This document shows positions 4,496 through 13,604 of a stretch of DNA of 64,000 bases, piece by piece; positions within the stretch are counted from its first letter, which is position 1, and each line of letters begins with the position of its first letter. The stretch lies in the NCBI RefSeq assembly GCF_023702635.1, contig NZ_CP098455.1, positions 2,356,001 to 2,420,000 of the forward strand. The letters are read 5' to 3'. The position numbers and the translations under genes were made by a program. A model generated the notes under the pieces. That model did not search any database and had not been told where the DNA came from. It saw nothing but the letters and a program-made list of their open reading frames with translations. The stretch is from Spongiibacter taiwanensis (GTDB lineage: Bacteria > Pseudomonadota > Gammaproteobacteria > Pseudomonadales > Spongiibacteraceae).

Positions 4496-5440
4496 TTACT
4501 TCAGGTAAAGCTCGCGCAGGCGGCTGAGATCGTTGTCGCTCAAGCCGACTTTCGCCTTCAGATAGCCGTCCACTGAGCCGTAGTCCTGCTGAATTTCAGT
4601 CAGGGCCAGGCGAATGTAAGGCGTGCCATCTTCGGTGATCAGCGGCTGGGGCTGGCGAGGTTTGTCGCCGTCACTGTAGCGCAGCATCATTTTGGCAAAG
4701 CTGTTGGTTTTTGCCGCTTCTTTCAGGTCGACGTCGCCGCGCTCAATCTCAGGGCGCCGGTATTGCGTGGACAGCAGATAATCCTGCTCGACCACCTCTT
4801 TGGGTACGCCCAGGGTGGTGAGCAACAGGGCAGAGGCAAAGCCGGTGCGATCCTGGCCAGCGGAGCAATTTACTACCACCGCGCCGTCGCCCTTGAGCAG
4901 CTCGTTGAAATACAGCGCCATTTGCGGGGCCAGGCTATCGGGCAGGGTGTAGTACAGGTCACCCAGCTTGAACTTTTCCGCTGCGCCCGCTGCTTGCCGG
5001 GCCTTGAGAAAGTCGGCCATTTTGTAACTGTGCTGACGGTAGGCGATGCTGTCGTCGTGGGTTACCCAGTGGTTGGGGTAAAGGGCCAACTCCTCGTCGG
5101 AGCGCAGGTCGACAACAGCTTGAAAATCGAACTGCTCAAGGTAATGCTCGTCTTTTGCCGTCAGACCGGTCATTACCCCCGAGCGGAACAGCACGCCACG
5201 GCGCACGGTTTTGCCGTCCTGGGTTTGATAGCCGCCCAGGTCGCGAAAGTTGCTGCCGCCTTCCAGTGGCAGTAAACGCTCCTGGCCAGCAGGGGTGGTC
5301 AGGGTCAGTTTGGCACTTGCGGTGTGCTCGGCGGTAGCCGGCGCGGCCATAGCCAGTGGCGCCATGCTCAGGCCGATGGCCGCGGCGAGGCTTGCTGCAG
5401 TGAGTTTGGTTGCGTCGCGCAGCTGTGCAAAAGATTTCAT
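4496..5440 (-). CDS. Exported tyrosine/serine (dual-specificity-like) phosphatase
   Basis: A 314-residue protein with a signal peptide (about residues 1-33, hydrophobic run ending MAMAA-like) and the Y_phosphatase3 layout: the NFRDLGGY motif at 64-71 and the P-loop NCSAGQDRTG with Cys192 and Arg198. The usual His before the catalytic Cys is Asn here. It should remove phosphate from a phosphoester in the periplasm; the substrate is unknown. It lies 66 nt downstream of a TonB-dependent receptor on the same strand, so it probably acts on whatever that receptor imports or releases. Family assignment is good, substrate unassigned. Confidence 0.85.
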   Translation of the reverse strand: MKSFAQLRDATKLTAASLAAAIGLSMAPLAMAAPATAEHTASAKLTLTTPAGQERLLPLEGGSNFRDLGGYQTQDGKTVRRGVLFRSGVMTGLTAKDEHYLEQFDFQAVVDLRSDEELALYPNHWVTHDDSIAYRQHSYKMADFLKARQAAGAAEKFKLGDLYYTLPDSLAPQMALYFNELLKGDGAVVVNCSAGQDRTGFASALLLTTLGVPKEVVEQDYLLSTQYRRPEIERGDVDLKEAAKTNSFAKMMLRYSDGDKPRQPQPLITEDGTPYIRLALTEIQQDYGSVDGYLKAKVGLSDNDLSRLRELYLK

Positions 5441-5506
5441 TATGTTGTTACTCCTGTGTTGGTTGGTCCCCCCGGCAGAGAATGCATCCTGCCGGGGGAT
5501 AAGGCC

Positions 5507-7993
5507 TTAGAAGCTCACCCGCATTCCGATCAGGTAGCGGCGGCCATAGCTTTCCGACTGGTTGATGGTGCCGTTGCCGGCGTAGCGTACGTCGGTTTCA
5601 TCGGTGAGGTTGTTCACGTTCAGGTAGATGGAGATCACCGCGCCTTCTAGTTCCAGCGGCAGCTCGTAGCTGATGGACAAATCGACCCGTTCCTGCTCGC
5701 CCCATACTTCGCTGGGGTCCTCAATGGGCGATACCCACTCGTCCCGGTACTGGTAGTTGATCCGGGCCGACAGGCCAAAATCTTCATAGAACAGCGACAG
5801 GTTGTAGATCAAATCCGAGGTGCCGGGCAGGCTGGCCTTGCTGCCGTCGAGCAGCTCAAATTCGCTGTCCAGGAAGGTGGCATTGGCGCTGATACCAAAA
5901 CCCTGTAACGCCGGGGTGAGATCAACGGCGTGGCCGACAAAGTTGACTTCAACGCCGCTCATTTCGCCGTTGTCGCCGTTGACTGCGCCCGAGTAAGTCC
6001 ACTGTTGACCAGCGAAGGCAGGGAGGTAAATGCCGGCATCAATGGTCGACTCCGACGAGTAAATGACGTTGTCGATTTCCCGGTAGAAGGCGCCCACCGA
6101 GAAGATACTGGCGGGGGCGAAGTACCACTCCAGGGCGGTGTCGATGCCCATGGCTTCTTCCGCTTCCAGGGTGGGGTTGCCGCCACGGATCTGCTCGTTG
6201 TTGACATCCACTGCCGCAGCGGCGCGCCACTCTTCATAGTTGGGGCGGTTCACCCCAGTGGTGCCGGAAACCCGCAGCTTCAGGTCTTCCTGCAAATTAA
6301 TATTCAGGTGGACAGAGGGCAGGGTGTGGTTGAAGTCATCGCTGACGCTGATCCGCTCGCCGTTGATGGTGCCCTTGCTGCTGTAGTCGGTCTGCTCGAA
6401 GCGTACGCCGGTGACCAGGTTACCCCAGTCAAAATCAGTGGTGACCATGGCATAGACGGCGAGAATCTCCTCGTTGATGGATACTAGCGCGTCATCTGCC
6501 GGGTTGATCGGCGCCAGCCCGGCTTCTTCCCAGGCCCGGCGCAGGCCCTTGTTGTCGTATACGGTGCCGCCGATGGTGTTGGTGGTGTTGCTGTCCCAGG
6601 GTTGGCCGGTGTTGAAGGAGTCGATATCGATACTGTCGGGGAAGGGGCCGACAATGGGAGTGAGGACAAAGCCGTCGGCGTCCCGGCTGTCGCGCTGGGC
6701 GCCCAGGCGCAGTGTGGCGTACTGGTTGAACCACTCGATACCGCGCTCGGCGTCGACCTTGAATTTAAAGCCGTCAATTTCCAGGGCATTGCCGTAGTTG
6801 ATGCCGATGGTGGCGGGGTAATCGATGCCGGACAAATCCTGATCGAGGGTGAGGCGCGGGTCTTCAATATCGCGCAGGTCATAGTCGGCGTTGGCGCTGC
6901 CGGCGACGCTGCGAATAATCGGCAAATCGGTGGTGTTTTCGGTCTCGCTGCCGTTGACCCGGGTTTCCAGCCGCCACTTGCCAATTTCAAAGTCGGCGCC
7001 GAGGGTGTTGCTCAGGGTGGAGTTTTTGTACTGGCCGTATTCCAGCAAGCGGGAAACCGACACGGCCTGATTGGTATTGCTGACCCCGGCCTGGGGAGTG
7101 TCCATGGCAAAGACAAACTGGTTGCGTTCTTCGTTGTCGACGAACTCGCTGTACAAGGTGCTCAGGAACAGGCGCTGTAAAAAGCCGTCACCGCTGTATT
7201 CCAGGGTGCCGCCCCAGGCGCTGTCTTCCCGCTTGACCTTGTAGCTGCGGAAGTCCAACTCGTTGACCACCAGTTCACCGTTGGCGTCCCGCTCCAGGTC
7301 GTATTCCCGGTTGTCGGTCACCTGCTCCCGGCTGTTTTCCGAGCCAAACAAGACAAAGCCAACGTTGTCATTGGACCAGGAGGTGCGCAATCCGTACTTC
7401 TCGATGTCGCCATCGCCCAGCTGCTGCTCACCCATGCCGATGTCGCCGGAGAAGGTCCAGCCCTCTTCGGCAAAGGGGCTGAAAGTCTGGATATTGATAA
7501 AGCCGGCCACCGCCTCGCCTGGCATGCTCGGCAAGACCGCTTTGTTGGCCTCAATGCGGCTGGTAATGACCGAGGGGAAGCTGTCGAAGCGCGGGGTGCG
7601 GCCATTTTCTGCGCCGGGCACATCGATGCCGTCAAAGGCGATGCTGGTGTAGCGGAAGGGCGCGCCGCGGAAGTTGATATACCGAGCCTGGCCCTGGTCC
7701 CGCTCGATAGCCAGCCCCGGCAGGCGGCCCAGGGAGTCGGCCAGATTCTGGTCGGGGAAGCGGCCGATGGTATCGGCGGAGATAATATCGACGTAGTTGT
7801 CGGCCAGTTTCTTGGCGTCGAAGGCCGCCTGTTGGCTGTCGCGAATCGGCGCGGCAGTGACGGTGACAAATTCCATCTTGGCGCCGGCTTCGTCGCCCTC
7901 GGGTGGCGTTGTTTGCGCCAGCGCGGCCACGGGTAGGGACAGCGTCGCAATCGCCAGGCTAAGCGATTTGCGCCTTCCTTTGGGGAAGTTCAT
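5507..7993 (-). CDS. TonB-dependent outer-membrane receptor
   Basis: An 828-residue receptor with a signal peptide (about 1-26, ending VAALAQ), an N-terminal plug (ADTIGRFPDQNLADSLGRLP, then NFRGAPFRYTSIAFDGIDVP) and a C-terminal beta-barrel ending in Phe (YLIGMRVSF). The plug wording matches the Xanthomonas/Caulobacter-type receptors that import carbohydrates or other complex nutrients rather than siderophores. The start is the ATG at 7993 with TTAGGAG upstream; a longer in-frame start at 8041 lacks this. The gene sits between the two regulatory-looking genes upstream and the exported phosphatase downstream, all on one strand. The ligand is unknown; a phosphorylated compound is a guess from context. 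Confidence 0.92.
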   Translation of the reverse strand: MNFPKGRRKSLSLAIATLSLPVAALAQTTPPEGDEAGAKMEFVTVTAAPIRDSQQAAFDAKKLADNYVDIISADTIGRFPDQNLADSLGRLPGLAIERDQGQARYINFRGAPFRYTSIAFDGIDVPGAENGRTPRFDSFPSVITSRIEANKAVLPSMPGEAVAGFINIQTFSPFAEEGWTFSGDIGMGEQQLGDGDIEKYGLRTSWSNDNVGFVLFGSENSREQVTDNREYDLERDANGELVVNELDFRSYKVKREDSAWGGTLEYSGDGFLQRLFLSTLYSEFVDNEERNQFVFAMDTPQAGVSNTNQAVSVSRLLEYGQYKNSTLSNTLGADFEIGKWRLETRVNGSETENTTDLPIIRSVAGSANADYDLRDIEDPRLTLDQDLSGIDYPATIGINYGNALEIDGFKFKVDAERGIEWFNQYATLRLGAQRDSRDADGFVLTPIVGPFPDSIDIDSFNTGQPWDSNTTNTIGGTVYDNKGLRRAWEEAGLAPINPADDALVSINEEILAVYAMVTTDFDWGNLVTGVRFEQTDYSSKGTINGERISVSDDFNHTLPSVHLNINLQEDLKLRVSGTTGVNRPNYEEWRAAAAVDVNNEQIRGGNPTLEAEEAMGIDTALEWYFAPASIFSVGAFYREIDNVIYSSESTIDAGIYLPAFAGQQWTYSGAVNGDNGEMSGVEVNFVGHAVDLTPALQGFGISANATFLDSEFELLDGSKASLPGTSDLIYNLSLFYEDFGLSARINYQYRDEWVSPIEDPSEVWGEQERVDLSISYELPLELEGAVISIYLNVNNLTDETDVRYAGNGTINQSESYGRRYLIGMRVSF

Positions 7994-8127
7994 GGTGATG
8001 CTCCTAATTTGGGTTGGGTGGCTACTGCGCCTCTCTGTCATCTGCCAGCCGCTTGGCTGTGCTGGGGCGCTTGAACCGGATCAATGTTGGGGCTGCTGGG
8101 TGTCTTCAGCGGGGGTCATTTTGGTGA

Positions 8128-8167
8128 GGGGAAATGTCTGGGGGATGACAGAGACATCTATTTCCCC
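8128..8167. promoter_or_regulatory. Inverted repeat upstream of the TonB receptor
   Basis: GGGGAAATGTCT (8128-8139) pairs with AGACAT-CT-ATTTCCCC (8152-8167), a 2-nt bulge interrupting the right arm, around a 12-nt loop. It lies in the 185-bp gap between the transducer stop and the receptor start, about 135-175 bp upstream of the receptor ATG. No T-run follows on the minus strand, so an operator is more likely than a terminator. Confidence 0.45.
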
Positions 8168-8178
8168 CTCGGGGATGT

Positions 8179-9366
8179 CTATTTTTGGCGGTCTGCACGG
8201 GTGTTGGCCGGCAGCATAATTTGTGCGGGTGAAAGGGCCAGTCGATATTTGGATCGGCCGGTCTGGAGGTCCCGCTCGGCCTCGAATAAGAAGGGCTGTG
8301 CCAGGCCCTCGCCCAGCGCCTGAACCAGCTCGTCCTTTACCTTGCTGCGGTTCTGGTCGAGGGTCTTGGCGCGCAGGCCTTTCTCGCTGAGATCATTGAT
8401 GGCTTTGTGGTGGCCGCCATGATCCAGCATCAGTTCGATCAAATCCTGATCGTGGCGGCGGTCAGGGCGATTGGCAGGTGGATTCACAAACCAGCCGCCG
8501 TCGGCATCGGCCTGTTTGCGCAAACGGGCATACCAGAGGTAGTACATAAAGGGTGTTGCAGGTAGCCGAATGGCGACACCGTGGACCACCACCGTATTGG
8601 TGTCTGGCTGAAAACTGAGTTGCGCCGGTGCGTTGCATAAGGTCAGCGCGGCGCCCAGGTTGTCTGGGTGTTGTGCCAGTGCCACAGGCAGCCAGGCCAG
8701 GCTCTGGTCGTCGGCCAGACCGCCGGAGGCCAGAATCGTCAGCGCCTGCTGAAGTTGAACCGTGTCATGGTTGAGTAATACCGCCAGGGCCTTGCGCTGG
8801 CAGGGGTTGAGGCCTGGCACCAGTTTGACCGCCGCCAGAGCCTGGGTGTGGCCAGTACCCTGCGATTTCATTCGCGACAGACAGCGCTGCTGCAGTGGCG
8901 ACAGCGGCGGTTGCACGACGCTGGCGAGCAGCGCGACGCCCAGCAATATCAGGGCAGGCAGACTGAGTTGCCACCACTGCGGATGGCAGCGCAGGCCCAG
9001 GGTAAGGGATTCATCCCGTTCCGGTAGCGACCAATTTAGCTGGAGGTGGCGCTGGGGGGAAAATGACAGCGGAAAGGGGGTGCCCCGCAGCTGGATCAGT
9101 GCCGCTTGGCATTGGCCGATGGGGCTAAGGGGGGATTTGGGTGTCAGCCGGGCCAGGTCCTCGTTGATTCGGGTTTGCAGGTACTGGTTTACCTTTTGGA
9201 GGTCGTGGGAATTTACCCCGGAGCGAATAATGCGTTCAGTGAGCGGCGCCTGCAGTTGTTGGTGGAGGTCGGCGGTGAGCCGGTTCAGTGACATCACATA
9301 ACAAGCGGCTGACAGCATGAGGCCGCAGGGCAGCGCCGCCAACAGGGTTCTTTGCCAGCGTTTCAT
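8179..9366 (-). CDS. Two-TM membrane protein with winged-helix-like C-terminus (putative transcriptional transducer)
   Basis: A 395-residue protein of no family I recognise with certainty. TM1 spans about residues 8-26, a roughly 105-residue presumed periplasmic region follows, TM2 spans 132-151 (LSLPALILLGVALLASVV), and the rest should be cytoplasmic. The last ~120 residues have the rhythm of an OmpR-type winged helix: VHGVAIRLPATPF, then a helix NRSKVKDELVQALG, then a hairpin with GRSKYRLAL. It overlaps the upstream binding-protein gene by 4 nt (ATGA), so the two products are probably made together. Reading: the partner senses a ligand outside and this protein carries the signal to DNA, perhaps the receptor promoter. 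The DNA-binding role is inferred only. Confidence 0.55.
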   Translation of the reverse strand: MKRWQRTLLAALPCGLMLSAACYVMSLNRLTADLHQQLQAPLTERIIRSGVNSHDLQKVNQYLQTRINEDLARLTPKSPLSPIGQCQAALIQLRGTPFPLSFSPQRHLQLNWSLPERDESLTLGLRCHPQWWQLSLPALILLGVALLASVVQPPLSPLQQRCLSRMKSQGTGHTQALAAVKLVPGLNPCQRKALAVLLNHDTVQLQQALTILASGGLADDQSLAWLPVALAQHPDNLGAALTLCNAPAQLSFQPDTNTVVVHGVAIRLPATPFMYYLWYARLRKQADADGGWFVNPPANRPDRRHDQDLIELMLDHGGHHKAINDLSEKGLRAKTLDQNRSKVKDELVQALGEGLAQPFLFEAERDLQTGRSKYRLALSPAQIMLPANTRADRQK

Positions 9367-10217
9367 GGGCAGCCCCCCTCAACCAACGGGATGGGCGCCT
9401 GATCGAAAACCGGCTGAAAAACGTTCAGGGCCCGGATAATATCGCAGACCGCCGGGTCGCCGAGCAGGTCTGCGCGCAAGAACCAGCTGCCCGAGGGCAC
9501 GTCTTTAGCCAGCGGGGTGAACACCACGCCCCCTTGATCGGGGACCAATACCGGGTTTCTGGCACTGGAGATGATATCGACCTGACCCTGTTCGAAAGCG
9601 TCATAGAGGGCAGCGATACTGGAAAAATACTGAATTTGGGTGTTATCCAGATCGATATTGGCCGAGCGCAGGGCATTCATCGGTTGCAGAAAGTAGGTCT
9701 GGCTGTGCTGGTCCAAGGACAGGCCGACCCTTTTTCCGGCAAAATAGGTGTCGTTCATGGCAACCGGTGTTTTGCGGCTCAGCCAGTACAGGGTGTAGCG
9801 GGGGCTATCCAGAATGGGTTGGTAGTACTGATACACCTCGGGCAGCAGGCCTTCTACTACGTGGCGGCGGTTCCAGATTAATTGGTAGTTGCCCTCGAGA
9901 ATATCCTGGGCCTTCAGGTAGCCCCGGGGATGCCAGCTGATCTCGACGCTGGCGTATTGCTCGCTCAACAGGGCGGACTGGCACAGGGCTTCTGCCAGCG
10001 CGATGGCGTAGGTGGGGGTCAGGGTCAGGACGCGAAAGGCCGCGTCACTGTCGGTATTGGCCACCTCACAGCGATAGCTGACGTAGTCCTGTAAGTTGAT
10101 GGCTTTAAAACTGTTTTTTGACAGGGCCCAGGTCGCGAGCAAGGGCAGCGCGGCCATTGCGGCGAGAATCAGGAAGTAGTGCCAGCGGCGCTGGGTAACG
10201 AGGGGGAGCGGGAGCAT
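9363..10217 (-). CDS. Membrane-anchored PhnD/phosphonate-binding-like protein (putative sensor)
   Basis: A 284-residue protein with one N-terminal TM segment (about 12-30) and a type 2 periplasmic-binding-protein-like body: RVLTLTPTYAIALAEAL, a central AGKRVGLSLDQHS strand and a late AALYDAFEQGQVDIISS block as in PhnD-type phosphate/phosphonate-binding domains. There is no clear signal-peptidase site, so it is probably anchored with its domain in the periplasm. No ABC permease or ATPase lies nearby, which argues for a sensing rather than a transport job. It is the first gene of a 4-nt-overlapping pair with the two-TM protein. The fold assignment is moderate. Confidence 0.6.
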   Translation of the reverse strand: MLPLPLVTQRRWHYFLILAAMAALPLLATWALSKNSFKAINLQDYVSYRCEVANTDSDAAFRVLTLTPTYAIALAEALCQSALLSEQYASVEISWHPRGYLKAQDILEGNYQLIWNRRHVVEGLLPEVYQYYQPILDSPRYTLYWLSRKTPVAMNDTYFAGKRVGLSLDQHSQTYFLQPMNALRSANIDLDNTQIQYFSSIAALYDAFEQGQVDIISSARNPVLVPDQGGVVFTPLAKDVPSGSWFLRADLLGDPAVCDIIRALNVFQPVFDQAPIPLVEGGCP

Positions 10218-10502
10218 GGACGGCTTAACGACTTAAAAACGTCATGCTAACGCCGCTGCTTTACGTTTTGATGAATGCAAGCATTTGCTGGCAAAGATCG
10301 GCTGATTTGGGTCTTTTCCTGTGAATATTGTTAAAAGTCAAAATCCGGTTGACCGCGTTAGCGCTATTCCGGCGATTTTAGTATAAGGAAGGGTCCGGCA
10401 GCCCCCGTGGCGCGGGATCTTCGAGAGGGATGGGCCCCGGCGCGGGCCTCCGATGAATACAGCAAGAGATGGCTGGTAAACCAGTTGTTTCGGGGTTTGG
10501 GA

Positions 10503-13500
10503 ATGAGCGACAAGCAAGAGCAACCGGTCGAGCAAACAAAGGATATTGTGGTGGATGATGCCGCCGAGGGCGAGCTGATCGAGCACGATGGTCCGATGGA
10601 GGATGATCCGAATGACGACAGCTATGACGGTGGCTTGATCGTTGTTGGGGTTGGCGCCAGTGCCGGTGGTCTGGAGGCGCTGCAAGACCTGGTGGCAACC
10701 ATTCCCCCCGATATAGGGGTGGCCTTTGTGGTTGCCCAGCACTTATCGCCGGTGCATAAGAGTAAGTTCGTTGAAATCCTGTCCAAGCATGCCCAGATCC
10801 CCATCGTGCAGGCCGAAGATGGCGCCCAGCTCCGCGTTAATGAAATGGTGATTTGCCCGCCCGGGTTCAATATTGAGGTGATCAAAGGGGATCGTGTAAC
10901 GCTGTCGCGGAAGGTGGACCCGCGAGTTTCACCGGTGCCATCGGTGGACCAACTGTTTGAATCCATTGCCACTGTGAAAGGTGAGCGCAGCATTGGTGTG
11001 GTGTTGTCCGGTACCGGTACCGACGGCACGATTGGCCTGCGGGCGATCAAGGCGGAAAACGGCTTTGGTATGGTCCAGGACCCTCGTACCGCCCAGTATA
11101 ACGGCATGCCTAACTCGGCCATTATCACCGCAAATATCGATTTGGTGATGAAGGTGGAGGAAATTGCCGCCCAGATCATTGCCATTGTCACCCCCCGTAA
11201 TTTCAAGGTGGCCGCTGGCGTCGAGCTGGTGCCCAGCGAAGCCTATGTTGAAATTCTCAAGCAGCTGAAGTCATTGAGTGGCGTGGACTTTAGTCTCTAC
11301 AAGGAAAAAACGCTGATTCGTCGGATCGACCGGCGGATGACCTCCCTGCGGCTGAAGGATGCCCAAGAGTATTGTCGCTACCTCTCGGAAAACACCAAGG
11401 AAATTTCCTTGCTGATGAGCGACCTGCTTATCGGGGTGACCTCCTTCTTCCGGGACAAGGATGCCTTTCTCGAGCTGCGTTCAGAGCTGCAGAAATACAT
11501 CAAAGATTGCGAACACCAGGTGCTGCGTATTTGGACGCCGGGCTGTTCTACCGGTGAGGAGCCTTACTCCATTGCCATGATCATCGACGATATTCTCGGC
11601 GAAGATCGGGACGAGTGGGCGGTGCAGATCTTTGCCACCGACATCGATCCCAAGGCCATCGCCTTCGCCCGGGAGGGGGTCTACTCTTCTTCCGTGGTGA
11701 AGAATGTGCCCGAGGAGTACCGCCGCAAATACTTTGTCAGCAAGGGCAGTCAGTACGAGGTGGTGCGCTTCATTAAATCGTCGGTGCTGTTTGCCAATCA
11801 CGATCTCAACCGTGACCCGCCGTTTATCCGCACCGACCTGATCAGCTGCCGCAACCTGATGATCTACTTCAAGCCCGAGTTGCAGCTGCGTACCTTCCAG
11901 GTATTCCACTACTCGCTGAACTTTAACGGCATGCTGTTTTTGGGCAGCTCCGAGTCGCTGTCGTCGAGTCTGAACAATTTCAAAATCGTGTCCAAACGGC
12001 ACAAGATTTACAAAAGCCTGTATGCCGACAAGAAACTGCCGTTGGACACCATCTACAAGACCAAAAATGACGAGCGCATTGTTGGCAACAAGCTCGCCAA
12101 ACCGGTGTTCGACAGCCCCCGCAGCATGACTCGTATCGAGAGCCTGGTGGCCGGGGTGGACATGTTCCGCAAGCTCATTGTGGAAGGTTTAGAAAACACC
12201 AAGATTCTGTACCCGGTGATCATCAACGAATCCAACGATATTGTGTATATCCACGGCGAAAACCCGGTGTTGATTCGGCCGGTCGGGGTGCCCACCAACA
12301 ACATTCTTAAAAGTGTCGAGTCGGAGCTGGCGATCCAGATTCGCGAGGTGCTGCATCGCTTGAGCGCAGAGGATGAGTGGGCCTCTACGGCCTACGTTGC
12401 TCTCAAGGATACAGACAAGCCAACCTACGTACGTATCTTTGCAAAGAATGCCCACTGCCCCTTACCTATCGGCCGGGTCGTGGTGCTGTATTTCCAGCTG
12501 GAAACCGAAGACAGTTTGCCTGTGAGAATTCTGGAAGGCAGCGATGGTTCCAATCAGGCGCTGATGGAGCAGAAGCGGATACTGGCGCAGACCGAATATC
12601 AGATGCAGACGCTGATTGAGGAGCTGGAAACCTCCAACGAAGAAATGCAGGCGATGAATGAGGAGCTGCAAAGCTCCAATGAAGAGCTGCAGAGTTCCAA
12701 CGAGGAGCTGGAAACAACTAACGAAGAGCTGCAGGCGACAAATGAAGAGTTGCAAACGGCCTACGGGGAAATTCGCGCCGCCTACAATCAGAAGCTGGAA
12801 AGCCAGTCCACCCTGGAGACAATGAAGGAGGCTCTGGAGGAAAGTAACAGCCTGCTTGAAGAGTCCAGCCGAATTGGCAAGTACGGCTCCTGGAGCTGGG
12901 ATCTGGAGACCCGGCGTTTCAAGTGGAGCAAGGGTTTCTGTCGCATCTTCGGCATTGAGGCTGATAAGGAAGACGCGTCCTACGAGCGGTTTATCAATAT
13001 CGCTATTGATGATGACCGCAAGCGGATGGAAAACTTTATCTCTGATCTCATTCTTGGCAAGACCAAGAAGCCCATGTTGATCAAAGCGCTGGATAGTAAA
13101 GAGCGGGAGCTCGATATCTCAGTTGCCGCCTTCACTTATCTCAATGATCTCGGCCAGACGACCAAGATCATTGGGATCGTGATGGATATCTCCGAGAAAG
13201 TGTCCTACCAAGACGAGAGCAAGCTGCTCAAGAGCCGGATTGATATTCTGCTGAATAACAGCTTCAGCGGGTGTTATGTGCTGGAGGTGGACACCATGAA
13301 AATAGTGAACGCCAACGAGATATTCCGCGACACGCTGGGGATAAAAGAAGAAGAGCTTGATCAGTATGATGAGGTTAAGTTCTTTGAGTTGTTCACCAAG
13401 GAAGCCAAGGATACCTTCCTGGAAATGATCATTACCCAGATGAACGCCGCCTTGGGCACCAGCTTGAAGATTCAGTATGAAATGCGCACCACCGATGGCC

Positions 13501-13604
13501 GACTGCTGAAAGTCGACGCCCGCCACTCGGTGTTCAGTCGCGATGGCCGCAATAACAAGGCAAAAACCATTCTGGTCAACATTATGCCGGTTGCCGGGAG
13601 TTAA
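10503..13604 (+). CDS. CheB-CheR-PAS hybrid signalling protein
   Basis: A 1033-residue soluble protein. A CheB methylesterase domain (about 45-225) has the Ser in [12 protein letters not shown], a His in VAQHLSP and an Asp in [11 protein letters not shown] CheR methyltransferase follows (about 240-500; [18 protein letters not shown] binds SAM). Then comes a linker with a long coiled coil of [11 protein letters not shown]-type heptads (about 680-760) and two PAS-like domains to the end. Most relatives continue into a histidine kinase; this one stops after the second PAS. No other chemotaxis gene is near. The start at 10503 (MSDKQEQ) is preferred, but an in-frame GTG at 10407 would add 32 residues. 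Confidence 0.9.

Follow-up and report, generated by a model that had tools for sequence, protein, structure and literature searches.

Where TonB receptors are regulated, the control is mostly attributed to sigma/anti-sigma pairs, to metal repressors or to soluble regulators. A block of four minus-strand genes in Spongiibacter taiwanensis, at 4496-10217 of the window (the whole 64,000-nucleotide stretch of DNA that was analysed), raises the question whether a receptor and a phosphatase could be controlled by a membrane protein that acts on the DNA directly. In the list of open reading frames (ORFs) the block consists, in this order, of the genes of a binding protein (PBP), a transducer (TR), a TonB-dependent receptor (TBDR) and a phosphatase (PTP). 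An earlier note had proposed such a membrane-to-DNA switch from this gene order and from a 4-nt overlap of the first two genes; the ORF check confirmed the place and strand of all four as well as the overlap, which reads ATGA.

Table 1. Features of the PBP-TR-TBDR-PTP locus (window positions)
Feature	Position	Strand	Description
PBP	9363..10217	-	type II periplasmic binding protein of 284 aa with a membrane anchor; likely the ligand sensor
TR	8179..9366	-	transmembrane transducer, 395 aa
TR residues 246-388	8203..8631	-	OmpR-like winged helix, putative DNA-binding domain (model, fold search and profiles)
Operator site 1, AGACATC	8174..8180	-	putative; overlaps TR stop codon
Operator site 2, AGATGTCTCTGTCA	8146..8159	-	putative; 21 bp from site 1
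Candidate -10 hexamer, CAAAAT	8118..8123	-	receptor promoter; 36 bp from site 2 start
TBDR	5507..7993	-	828-aa TonB-dependent receptor of the TonB-Xanth-Caul type; the ORF extends to 8041
PTP	4496..5440	-	exported CX5R phosphatase, PF13350, 314 aa
P-loop CSAGQDR, PTP residues 192-198	4847..4867	-	from alignment of PTP loci

The four gene products

The receptor scored 460.9 bits with TIGR01782 (TonB-Xanth-Caul; cutoff 310, E 9e-138), and Pfam detected Plug and beta-barrel matches and no STN/secretin domain. These results agree with its description as a nutrient-type receptor. Judged by eye from its signal peptide and from an AGGAG upstream, the protein more likely starts at the ATG at 7993 than at the ORF limit. 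Cell-surface signalling was rejected as a mode of control, since the receptor lacks an STN domain and no sigma/anti-sigma pair occurs among the 22 neighbouring proteins scanned. This subset of the neighbours contained no histidine kinase or ABC permease either, as had been noted before, and on the latter ground an ABC uptake system was rejected. The phosphatase matched PF13350 with 197.9 bits (cutoff 22.2, E 3.4e-58); its CX5R loop did not vary among the 12 aligned loci and read CSAGKDR in a thirteenth. With a signal peptide recognized by eye, its identification as an exported CX5R phosphatase holds. When the class was surveyed with PTP at E 1e-45 in 369 genomes, only the S. taiwanensis genome itself was found.

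Hydropathy assigned to PBP one transmembrane segment (TM, about residues 15-33). Its predicted model (pLDDT 77.3) gave 569 fold matches in the PDB at E<=0.001, with TM-scores of about 0.4-0.55, which points to a bilobed type II PBP fold, and the term membrane-anchored binding protein is thus appropriate. 'Phosphonate-binding-like' found no backing in Pfam for the S. taiwanensis protein. The phosphonate-binding family PF12974 stayed below its cutoff in Pfam (12.4 bits against 27) and was matched at E<=0.1 by three of eight aligned PBP members (best 0.0043); in the fold search PtxB, HtxB, PhnD, ArrX and AioX appeared at E 1e-7 to 1e-6, amino-acid and sulfonate binders scored as well, and the best match was an arginine binder. 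For both PBP and TR, Pfam and NCBIfam returned sub-threshold matches only, among them B5 at E 0.016 and a pheromone model at E 0.043, which were taken as chance, and the sequence profiles of alignments A3 and A4 gave only chance-looking matches when compared with the PDB.

Four cysteines of PBP (Cys50, Cys79, Cys258 and Cys283) are invariant in alignments A2 and A4, and both PBP and TR diverge fast. It is conceivable, with a rather small probability, that PBP is a ToxS-like stabiliser of TR and that the periplasmic part of TR senses something else. Such a role would suit the fast divergence of the two proteins, and the overlapping genes and invariant cysteines recall ToxR/ToxS-like pairs as outlined in excerpts of PMC9214523. 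The predicted bilobed ligand-binding fold, however, argues for PBP as the ligand sensor, and sensors of the PBP type are known from AioX (excerpts of PMC5908839) and CBP (excerpts of PMC11856585).

TR was described in the earlier note as a two-TM protein with a winged-helix-like C-terminus, and both features were recovered, the first by hydropathy and the second in a predicted model. TM1 (about residues 7-25) is followed by a periplasmic part, TM2 (about 133-151), a helical linker (152-245) and the winged helix. Two further hydropathy peaks at 252-278, barely above the threshold in three loci, lie inside the modelled winged helix and were left out of the TM count. The model (pLDDT 86.8, mostly 87-97 in the C-terminus at about 246-388) has its structural elements there in the order seen in OmpR-type winged helices. 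In Foldseek the best PDB match of this part was the DNA-binding domain of AdeR, at E 0.25 and with unrelated chains close behind. Profile comparison by hhalign related it at 98.5% to the C-terminal end of NE0113/Csm6-type CRISPR proteins (TIGR02584) and weakly, at 28.9% over 38 columns, to the OmpR-family domains of the same genome (controls 0.1%). No Pfam or NCBIfam family, DNA-binding ones included, passed its cutoff on TR; Trans_reg_C (PF00486, the OmpR/PhoB winged helix) did not match, TR is not among the five PF00486 matches of the genome, and the likeness is at the level of the fold. Mean pairwise identity among eight TR sequences was 57% in the putative DNA-binding domain and 85% in its core, against 28% in the periplasmic part and linker. 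TR may combine hydropathy-predicted TM segments and a putative DNA-binding winged helix in one chain, and it is the sole candidate DNA-binding protein within the cassette.

Recurrence of the cassette

Among the 13 loci, which come from 12 genomes, 12 have the gene order PBP-TR-TBDR-PTP. The ordered loci are those of S. taiwanensis, eight congeners, Parahaliea and Cellvibrionaceae AOL6, and one of two Oceanobacter loci; at the other Oceanobacter locus (L025) the PBP-TR pair is joined by the phosphatase without a receptor. Since 12 of 13 loci agree while their flanks differ in several cases, the shared order is beyond chance. A PF13350 phosphatase adjoins the pair at all 13 loci and is its most constant partner, a receptor at 12, so that the survey of neighbours, suggested earlier as a check, found a receptor, a phosphatase or both wherever the pair occurred. 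The second Oceanobacter cassette was found later, by receptor similarity alone. The idea that Oceanobacter L051 represents an unlinked receptor regulated in trans was rejected, the locus being a second four-gene cassette. Near the cassette of Spongiibacter pelagi lies a metallophosphoesterase gene.

With the start codons chosen, the PBP and TR genes overlap by 4-10 nt in 12 of 12 loci, and both proteins are tethered to the membrane by TMs (TM1 of the AOL6 TR fell below the threshold used). Among 21 genomes of the family, TR, TBDR and a close PTP were present together in nine and were all absent from the other 12, three of which are less than 90% complete. A class survey of 369 genomes found full TR in the S. 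taiwanensis genome only; four further matches, in three genomes, were all NE0113-type CRISPR proteins and were confined to the C-terminal domain. A plasmid search with TR gave no match.

Conserved sites upstream of the receptor and binding-protein genes

TBDR is preceded by a conserved two-site motif, AGAYATC followed 20-21 bp on by AGAYRTCTYTKTCA. This putative operator is a new element described here. The exact form occurred in one copy in each of the nine cassette genomes, always between TR and TBDR, and in none of the 12 cassette-free family genomes; across these 21 genomes operator and TR co-occurred without exception. A palindromic form, at 0-1 mismatch, was found at receptors only (five genomes). 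In G016 an extra ORF separates TR and TBDR and the operator remains at TBDR, and a second Parahaliea TBDR-PTP pair, which has no TR, has no operator. As the pattern was drawn from the cassette loci, its presence there is given by construction, and the tests proper are its uniqueness, its absence elsewhere and the later Oceanobacter cassette. Two stray matches with two mismatches appeared elsewhere in the scan, the same number as with the reversed pattern. In a leave-one-out scan the omitted locus ranked first of 47,722-84,446 positions in 10 of 10 loci; these represent 10 of the 12 receptor promoters, the near-duplicates G004 and Z. marina being omitted and L025 having no receptor promoter.

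Could the operator be the site of another regulator, with the winged helix of TR not on it and the PBP-TR pair, for example, handing over ligand or controlling the phosphatase? The nearest relative that was found is the C-terminal wHTH of the CARF superfamily, for most members of which ligand binding not directly tied to transcription is proposed in the available part of PMC4012209, and TR exceeded no cutoff of a DNA-binding family. Against this stand the constant co-occurrence of TR with an operator that is unique per genome, the position of TR as the only DNA-binding candidate of the cassette, the conservation of the domain core relative to the sensor half, and the prediction, in the same part of PMC4012209, that NE0113 proteins regulate transcription. 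Such an alternative seems unlikely, and the C-terminal domain of TR is the candidate that would bind the operator.

A candidate -10 hexamer begins 36 bp beyond the start of site 2; all 11 promoters analysed have A2 and T6 at this offset, as against 5 of 11 at the next best one. The analysis covered 11 of the 12 receptor promoters, L057 having been found later; the hexamer is at the same offset in the later-found Oceanobacter cassette. The promoters of congeners share descent, site 2 is degenerate in three of the 12 promoters and was positioned there by hand, and in Parahaliea the 21-bp spacing was picked because the -10 then fits. The S. taiwanensis receptor promoter also holds one Pho-box-like match, with two mismatches.

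Inspected by eye, the receptor promoters have no good -35 at 17 bp, which suits an activator. The opposite reading, that TR is a membrane-bound repressor which leaves the two sites and the -35 region only when ligand-bound PBP releases it, appears improbable. Site 2 with its TTTGTCAC extension lies at about -48 to about -33 with respect to the -10 and could therefore block polymerase, but the lack of a good -35 favours an activator, and VtrA, ChiS and ToxR all figure as activators in the source excerpts, PMC11856585 among them. PhoB was rejected as the binder of the receptor operator, the repeat spacing being 20-21 bp and not 11, although the S. taiwanensis promoter does have the one Pho-box-like match named above. 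The earlier claim that the transducer controls receptor and phosphatase has gained evidence in the cassette-specific operator-promoter before the receptor gene, where TR is inferred to bind and activate.

Upstream of PBP, Pho-box-like sites were found in 10 of 13 loci. With at most three mismatches and at most 150 bp from PBP, they occurred in nine of 12 loci as compared with 11 of 106 control upstream regions, while the reversed pattern gave two of 12 and a second control pattern none of 12; in the thirteenth locus the plus strand of the whole 12-kb stretch was checked instead of the 150-bp rule, and the better site ends 2 nt before the ORF start used. Compared with shuffles, P<=0.05 was obtained in eight of 12 loci. 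The S. taiwanensis locus (P 0.73) has no such site before PBP, the best having five mismatches, nor do G016 (four mismatches) and G018 (six within 150 bp, three at 173 bp). PhoB is encoded in the S. taiwanensis genome.

The suggestion of a perhaps phosphorylated ligand is helped by the Pho-box-like sites of most loci, but not by the S. taiwanensis locus itself. A ligand without phosphorus, for example an amino acid, a sulfonate or a chelate, with another role for the phosphatase, has a limited chance of being correct. It would accord with the fold search, where amino-acid and sulfonate PBPs scored like phosphonate binders and an arginine binder came top, and with the missing Pho box before the S. 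taiwanensis PBP. The constancy of the PF13350 phosphatase, the Pho-box-like sites elsewhere and the metallophosphoesterase gene in S. pelagi speak against it, and the scavenged nutrient is probably phosphorus-containing, a phosphate ester.

A putative co-component regulator and its relation to known systems

Taken as a whole, the locus is best explained, and in our judgement this is fairly likely, as a self-regulated scavenging cassette with a PBP-TR co-component regulator that is nested under PhoB in most loci. PBP and TR together would form a co-component transmembrane transcription regulator. PBP would bind the ligand in the periplasm and then contact the periplasmic part of TR, and the signal would cross the two TMs to the cytoplasmic winged helix. 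Placed on both operator sites, which are separated by some two helical turns and lie directly upstream of the promoter without a good -35, the winged helix would activate the receptor and phosphatase genes. The receptor would take the ligand through the outer membrane, and PTP would dephosphorylate it outside the inner membrane. At most loci control of the sensor pair by PhoB would make an AND gate, with phosphate starvation and the ligand as its two inputs. The switch proposed in the earlier note is supported overall, while the binding of TR to DNA, its activating role and the nature of the ligand are the hypothetical parts of it.

We lean slightly towards a broader conclusion: that this is an independently assembled co-component class, made of a type II solute-binding protein and a two-TM transducer with a winged helix shared with CARF proteins, which serves one promoter per genome, is PhoB-nested in most lineages, and has an organic-phosphate receptor and phosphatase made only when phosphate is short and their own ligand is present. 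In a search of openly licensed texts, with most subscription journals outside its scope, no paper on such a PBP-TR pair was found. A membrane regulator with apparently one target is accompanied here by its receptor, phosphatase and operator, so that 6 kb of DNA contain the complete path from input to output. If the reading is true, co-component signalling would also exist in a form made of different components and in a setting other than virulence. The ligand of an orphan receptor could then be approached, and a CRISPR-type winged helix would be linked to nutrient control.

ChiS, of the ChiS-CBP system of Vibrio cholerae, has a hybrid histidine kinase as its ancestor, whereas TR lacks any kinase part; the PBP of the present locus, moreover, is membrane-anchored. 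The common element, in the excerpts of PMC11856585, is that a ligand-loaded periplasmic binding protein activates a membrane-embedded DNA-binding regulator of uptake genes. In AioX-AioS-AioR a PhnD-like PBP likewise serves sensing and not transport, but it signals via a histidine kinase and a response regulator (excerpts of PMC5908839), none of which was found at the PBP-TR locus. PUMA3 (VreA-VreI-VreR) of Pseudomonas aeruginosa is also a transmembrane signalling device under PhoB, but according to excerpts of PMC4971064 it employs an ECF sigma factor with its anti-sigma factor, together with a periplasmic protein that resembles a receptor. The NE0113/Csm6-type proteins (TIGR02584; PMC4012209, in part) share the C-terminal domain with TR; they are CARF proteins of CRISPR loci, whereas TR has TMs and no CARF domain match.

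The closest parallels are with VtrA/VtrC and ToxR/ToxS, as far as they are described in the excerpts of PMC9214523: the two genes overlap, one encoding a membrane protein that carries an OmpR-like winged helix (predicted in TR) and the other its periplasmic partner, which is anchored in the membrane; the sensor parts diverge fast; and a cysteine codon lies near the gene overlap. As in that superfamily, both products of the two-gene cassette are membrane-tethered, but the gene order is reversed, the sensor gene (PBP) coming first. Its regulators have an N-terminal OmpR-like HTH, a single TM and a periplasmic C-terminus, in contrast to the C-terminal winged helix, two TMs and helical linker of TR; its partner proteins are lipocalin-like, whereas PBP has a predicted type II PBP fold; and its targets are virulence genes, where PBP-TR would control a nutrient receptor and a phosphatase. 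The best reading is that PBP-TR works like the VtrA/VtrC co-component systems and is built of other parts, rather than being a member of their superfamily.

Gene content and distribution of the cassette

The four genes described in the earlier note, coding for a membrane-anchored periplasmic binding protein (PBP), a two-TM transducer (TR), a TonB-dependent receptor (TBDR) and an exported phosphatase (PTP), were all found at their places by an ORF check of the window. The 4-nt PBP/TR overlap claimed there was borne out; with the start codons chosen here it measures 4-10 nt in a set of 12 loci. The receptor, noted as nutrient-type, scores above the TIGR01782 cutoff, and the phosphatase is a clear PF13350 member with the CX5R loop that had been recognized. 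PBP and TR stay below the cutoff of every Pfam and NCBIfam family, and their aligned members gave weak Pfam matches at most. In the window and 11 other loci the last conserved PBP Cys codon lies a few codons from the TR start, overlapping the TR ATG in 3 of these loci; a conserved Cys codon near the gene overlap is described for ToxR/ToxS-like pairs (PMC9214523). The CheB-CheR-PAS neighbour of the cassette was the best match of no ORF in the stretches of 8 congeners.

Among 21 Spongiibacteraceae genomes TR is present in 9, and the same 9 carry orthologues of TBDR (identity 71-73% in the other 8) and close orthologues of PTP (E at most 1e-93), whereas the 12 genomes without TR, 3 of them <90% complete, have distant PTP relatives only (best 1e-38). 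The other 8 genomes with the cassette keep the gene order of the window; in several of them the flanks differ. A TR-alignment scan of 84,980 species genomes, which reaches only loci holding one of two peptide patterns, yielded 7 loci, 4 of them already counted (Zhongshania aliphaticivorans, Z. marina, Spongiibacter pelagi and a Zhongshania MAG) and 3 new. Parahaliea mediterranea and Cellvibrionaceae AOL6 have all four genes, and the Oceanobacter mangrovi locus (L025) has PBP-TR-PTP without TBDR. A TBDR search of the three new genomes added a further Oceanobacter locus (L057), where all four gene kinds are present and the phosphatase is only 35% identical to that of the window and has the loop CSAGKDR, and a second Parahaliea TBDR-PTP pair, which lacks TR and adjoins a TetR gene. 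Altogether the PBP-TR pair occurs at 13 loci in 12 genomes; in the survey of the pair that the earlier note had proposed, a PF13350 phosphatase adjoins it in 13/13 loci and a TBDR in 12/13. In L025 two half-sites 41 bp apart precede the phosphatase gene.

Coordinates of the features in the window and in stretches of relatives' DNA (L numbers)
Feature	Stretch	Position	Remark
PBP	window	9363-10217	minus strand
TR	window	8179-9366	minus strand
TBDR	window	5507-7993	minus strand
PTP	window	4496-5440	minus strand
PBP/TR junction	window	~9363-9375	conserved Cys codon
CheB-CheR-PAS protein	window	10407-13604	divergent neighbour
Extra ORF of genome G016, 159 aa	L011	8645-9124	opposite strand; between TR and receptor gene, operator on receptor side
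Second Parahaliea receptor-phosphatase pair, same type	L058	3661-7183	no sensor pair, no operator; TetR gene upstream
O. mangrovi, first version	L025	9120-12488	no receptor
O. mangrovi, second version	L057	3692-9556	
S. pelagi cassette surroundings	L021 (= L016 13649-18690)	1767-6808	metallophosphoesterase gene and further TonB receptor gene near cassette
NE0113/Csm6-type CRISPR proteins	L031	8468-9685	aligned with TR
	L032	879-2180	
	L033	78-1079	
	L034	2067-3212	

A two-site operator before the receptor gene

A conserved block lies between the TR and TBDR genes. Site 1 (AGAYATC, often within TTTAGAGAYATCTCTAAA) is followed after 20 or 21 bp by site 2 (AGAYRTCT) and then by a stretch resembling TYTKTCA. 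In 9/12 receptor promoters both sites conform strictly; Parahaliea, AOL6 and L057 have a degenerate site 2, which was placed by hand, the Parahaliea spacing being the one that fits a -10. In 11/11 promoters a -10-like hexamer (A2, T6) stands 36 bp from the site 2 start, whereas any other offset from 0 to 79 gave at most 5 of 11, and the L057 promoter, discovered afterwards, also has its -10 (CAGCAT) at the expected place. Site 2 thus falls at about -48 to -41, leaving no good -35, a geometry that, judged from sequence, would suit an activator beside polymerase.

Each of the 9 cassette genomes has a single exact copy of the two-site pattern, located between TR and TBDR; 0/12 family genomes without the cassette have one. 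At 2 mismatches two further matches appear elsewhere in the 21 genomes, as with the reversed control pattern (likewise 2). The palindrome at 0-1 mismatch is confined to receptors (5 genomes); at 2 mismatches one match is at a receptor and two are elsewhere, and its control pattern gave 5 strand matches in 3 genomes. In a leave-one-out matrix scan the true site ranked first in 10/10 loci. Where an extra ORF parts TR from TBDR (G016), the operator remains on the TBDR side. Because promoters of congeners share ancestry, these counts do not represent independent cases; those from Parahaliea, AOL6 and Oceanobacter come closer to independence.

The putative DNA-binding domain of the transducer

In the TR model (mean pLDDT 86.8) the chain runs from TM2 through a helical linker into three short strands, then helices, and closes with a beta hairpin at the C-terminus, a predicted order of elements as in OmpR-type winged helices, which agrees with the fold suggested earlier. 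Foldseek ranks the AdeR DNA-binding domain first, with probability 0.90 and target TM 0.57, though its E value is 0.25; BaeR (E 0.74), YycF (E 1.2) and CadC (E 2.7) also appear, among unrelated chains with similar E values. In profile comparisons the C-terminal domain alone aligns with four NE0113/Csm6-type CRISPR proteins (98.5%, E 2e-15), which in turn match five OmpR-family domains of the window's genome at 62.5%; TR matches these five domains weakly (28.9%, P 6e-4, 38 columns), and the controls PBP and PTP reach 0.1%. C-terminal wHTH domains are reported in most CARF families, and NE0113 proteins are predicted to regulate transcription (PMC4012209). This predicted winged-helix subtype is thus common to CRISPR accessory proteins and a membrane protein encoded next to a nutrient receptor gene. 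Among 8 sequences TR identity is 57% in the DNA-binding domain and 85% in its core, versus 28% in the sensor half.

Pho-box-like sites, proposed mechanism and known systems

With the Pho-box consensus CTGTMAY-N4-CTGTMAY, sites with <=2 mismatches were found within 150 bp before PBP in 7/12 loci versus 4/106 control upstream regions, and with <=3 mismatches in 9/12 versus 11/106, whereas two permuted patterns at <=3 mismatches gave 2/12 and 0/12. Against shuffles of the 200-bp regions, P<=0.05 was obtained in 8/12 loci. In the 13th locus (L057) the two plus-strand matches that score best in 12 kb (each with 2 mismatches) stand immediately ahead of the PBP ORF; the closer one ends 2 nt before the chosen start, so the true start may be further in. 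No such site precedes PBP in the window (best 5 mismatches), in G016 (4) or in G018 (6, within 150 bp). PhoB is encoded in the window's own genome. The Pho box is described as a pair of 7-bp direct repeats, with 4 bp of A/T-rich or similar sequence after each (PMC4971064). A Pho-box-like site with 2 mismatches lies 113 bp upstream of the S. pelagi metallophosphoesterase gene.

No plausible DNA-binding protein other than TR accompanies the operator; since, in addition, the DNA-binding domain of TR is conserved far above the sensor half and PBP overlaps TR, the pair would control the receptor-phosphatase unit as a co-component regulator. The PBP model (pLDDT 77.3) matches type II PBPs, including phosphite, phosphonate, phosphate and arsenic-oxyanion binders, and those of amino acids and sulfonates as well. 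The weakest part of the proposed mechanism is the class of ligand. We consider it fairly probable that this is a scavenging cassette, probably for a phosphorus nutrient, switched by PBP-TR through putative DNA binding. We lean, by a narrow measure, towards an independently assembled co-component class, combining a type II PBP with a two-TM C-terminal winged helix and PhoB-nested in most lineages. Both judgements are held down by the hand-placed site 2 in Parahaliea and the Pho-box position in L057.

A PBP and two-TM winged-helix pair at a receptor was not found as a combination in searches of an open-licence library. Two TMs alone are not new, as 17% of the transmembrane regulators in one survey have them (PMC10269533). 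With the co-component systems described in PMC9214523 the principle is common but the parts are not: PBP-TR has neither the HTH at the N-terminus nor the single TM nor the lipocalin-like partner reported there. For input through a binding protein, as proposed for PBP, the accounts of ChiS-CBP (PMC11856585) and AioX-AioS (PMC5908839) provide precedents.
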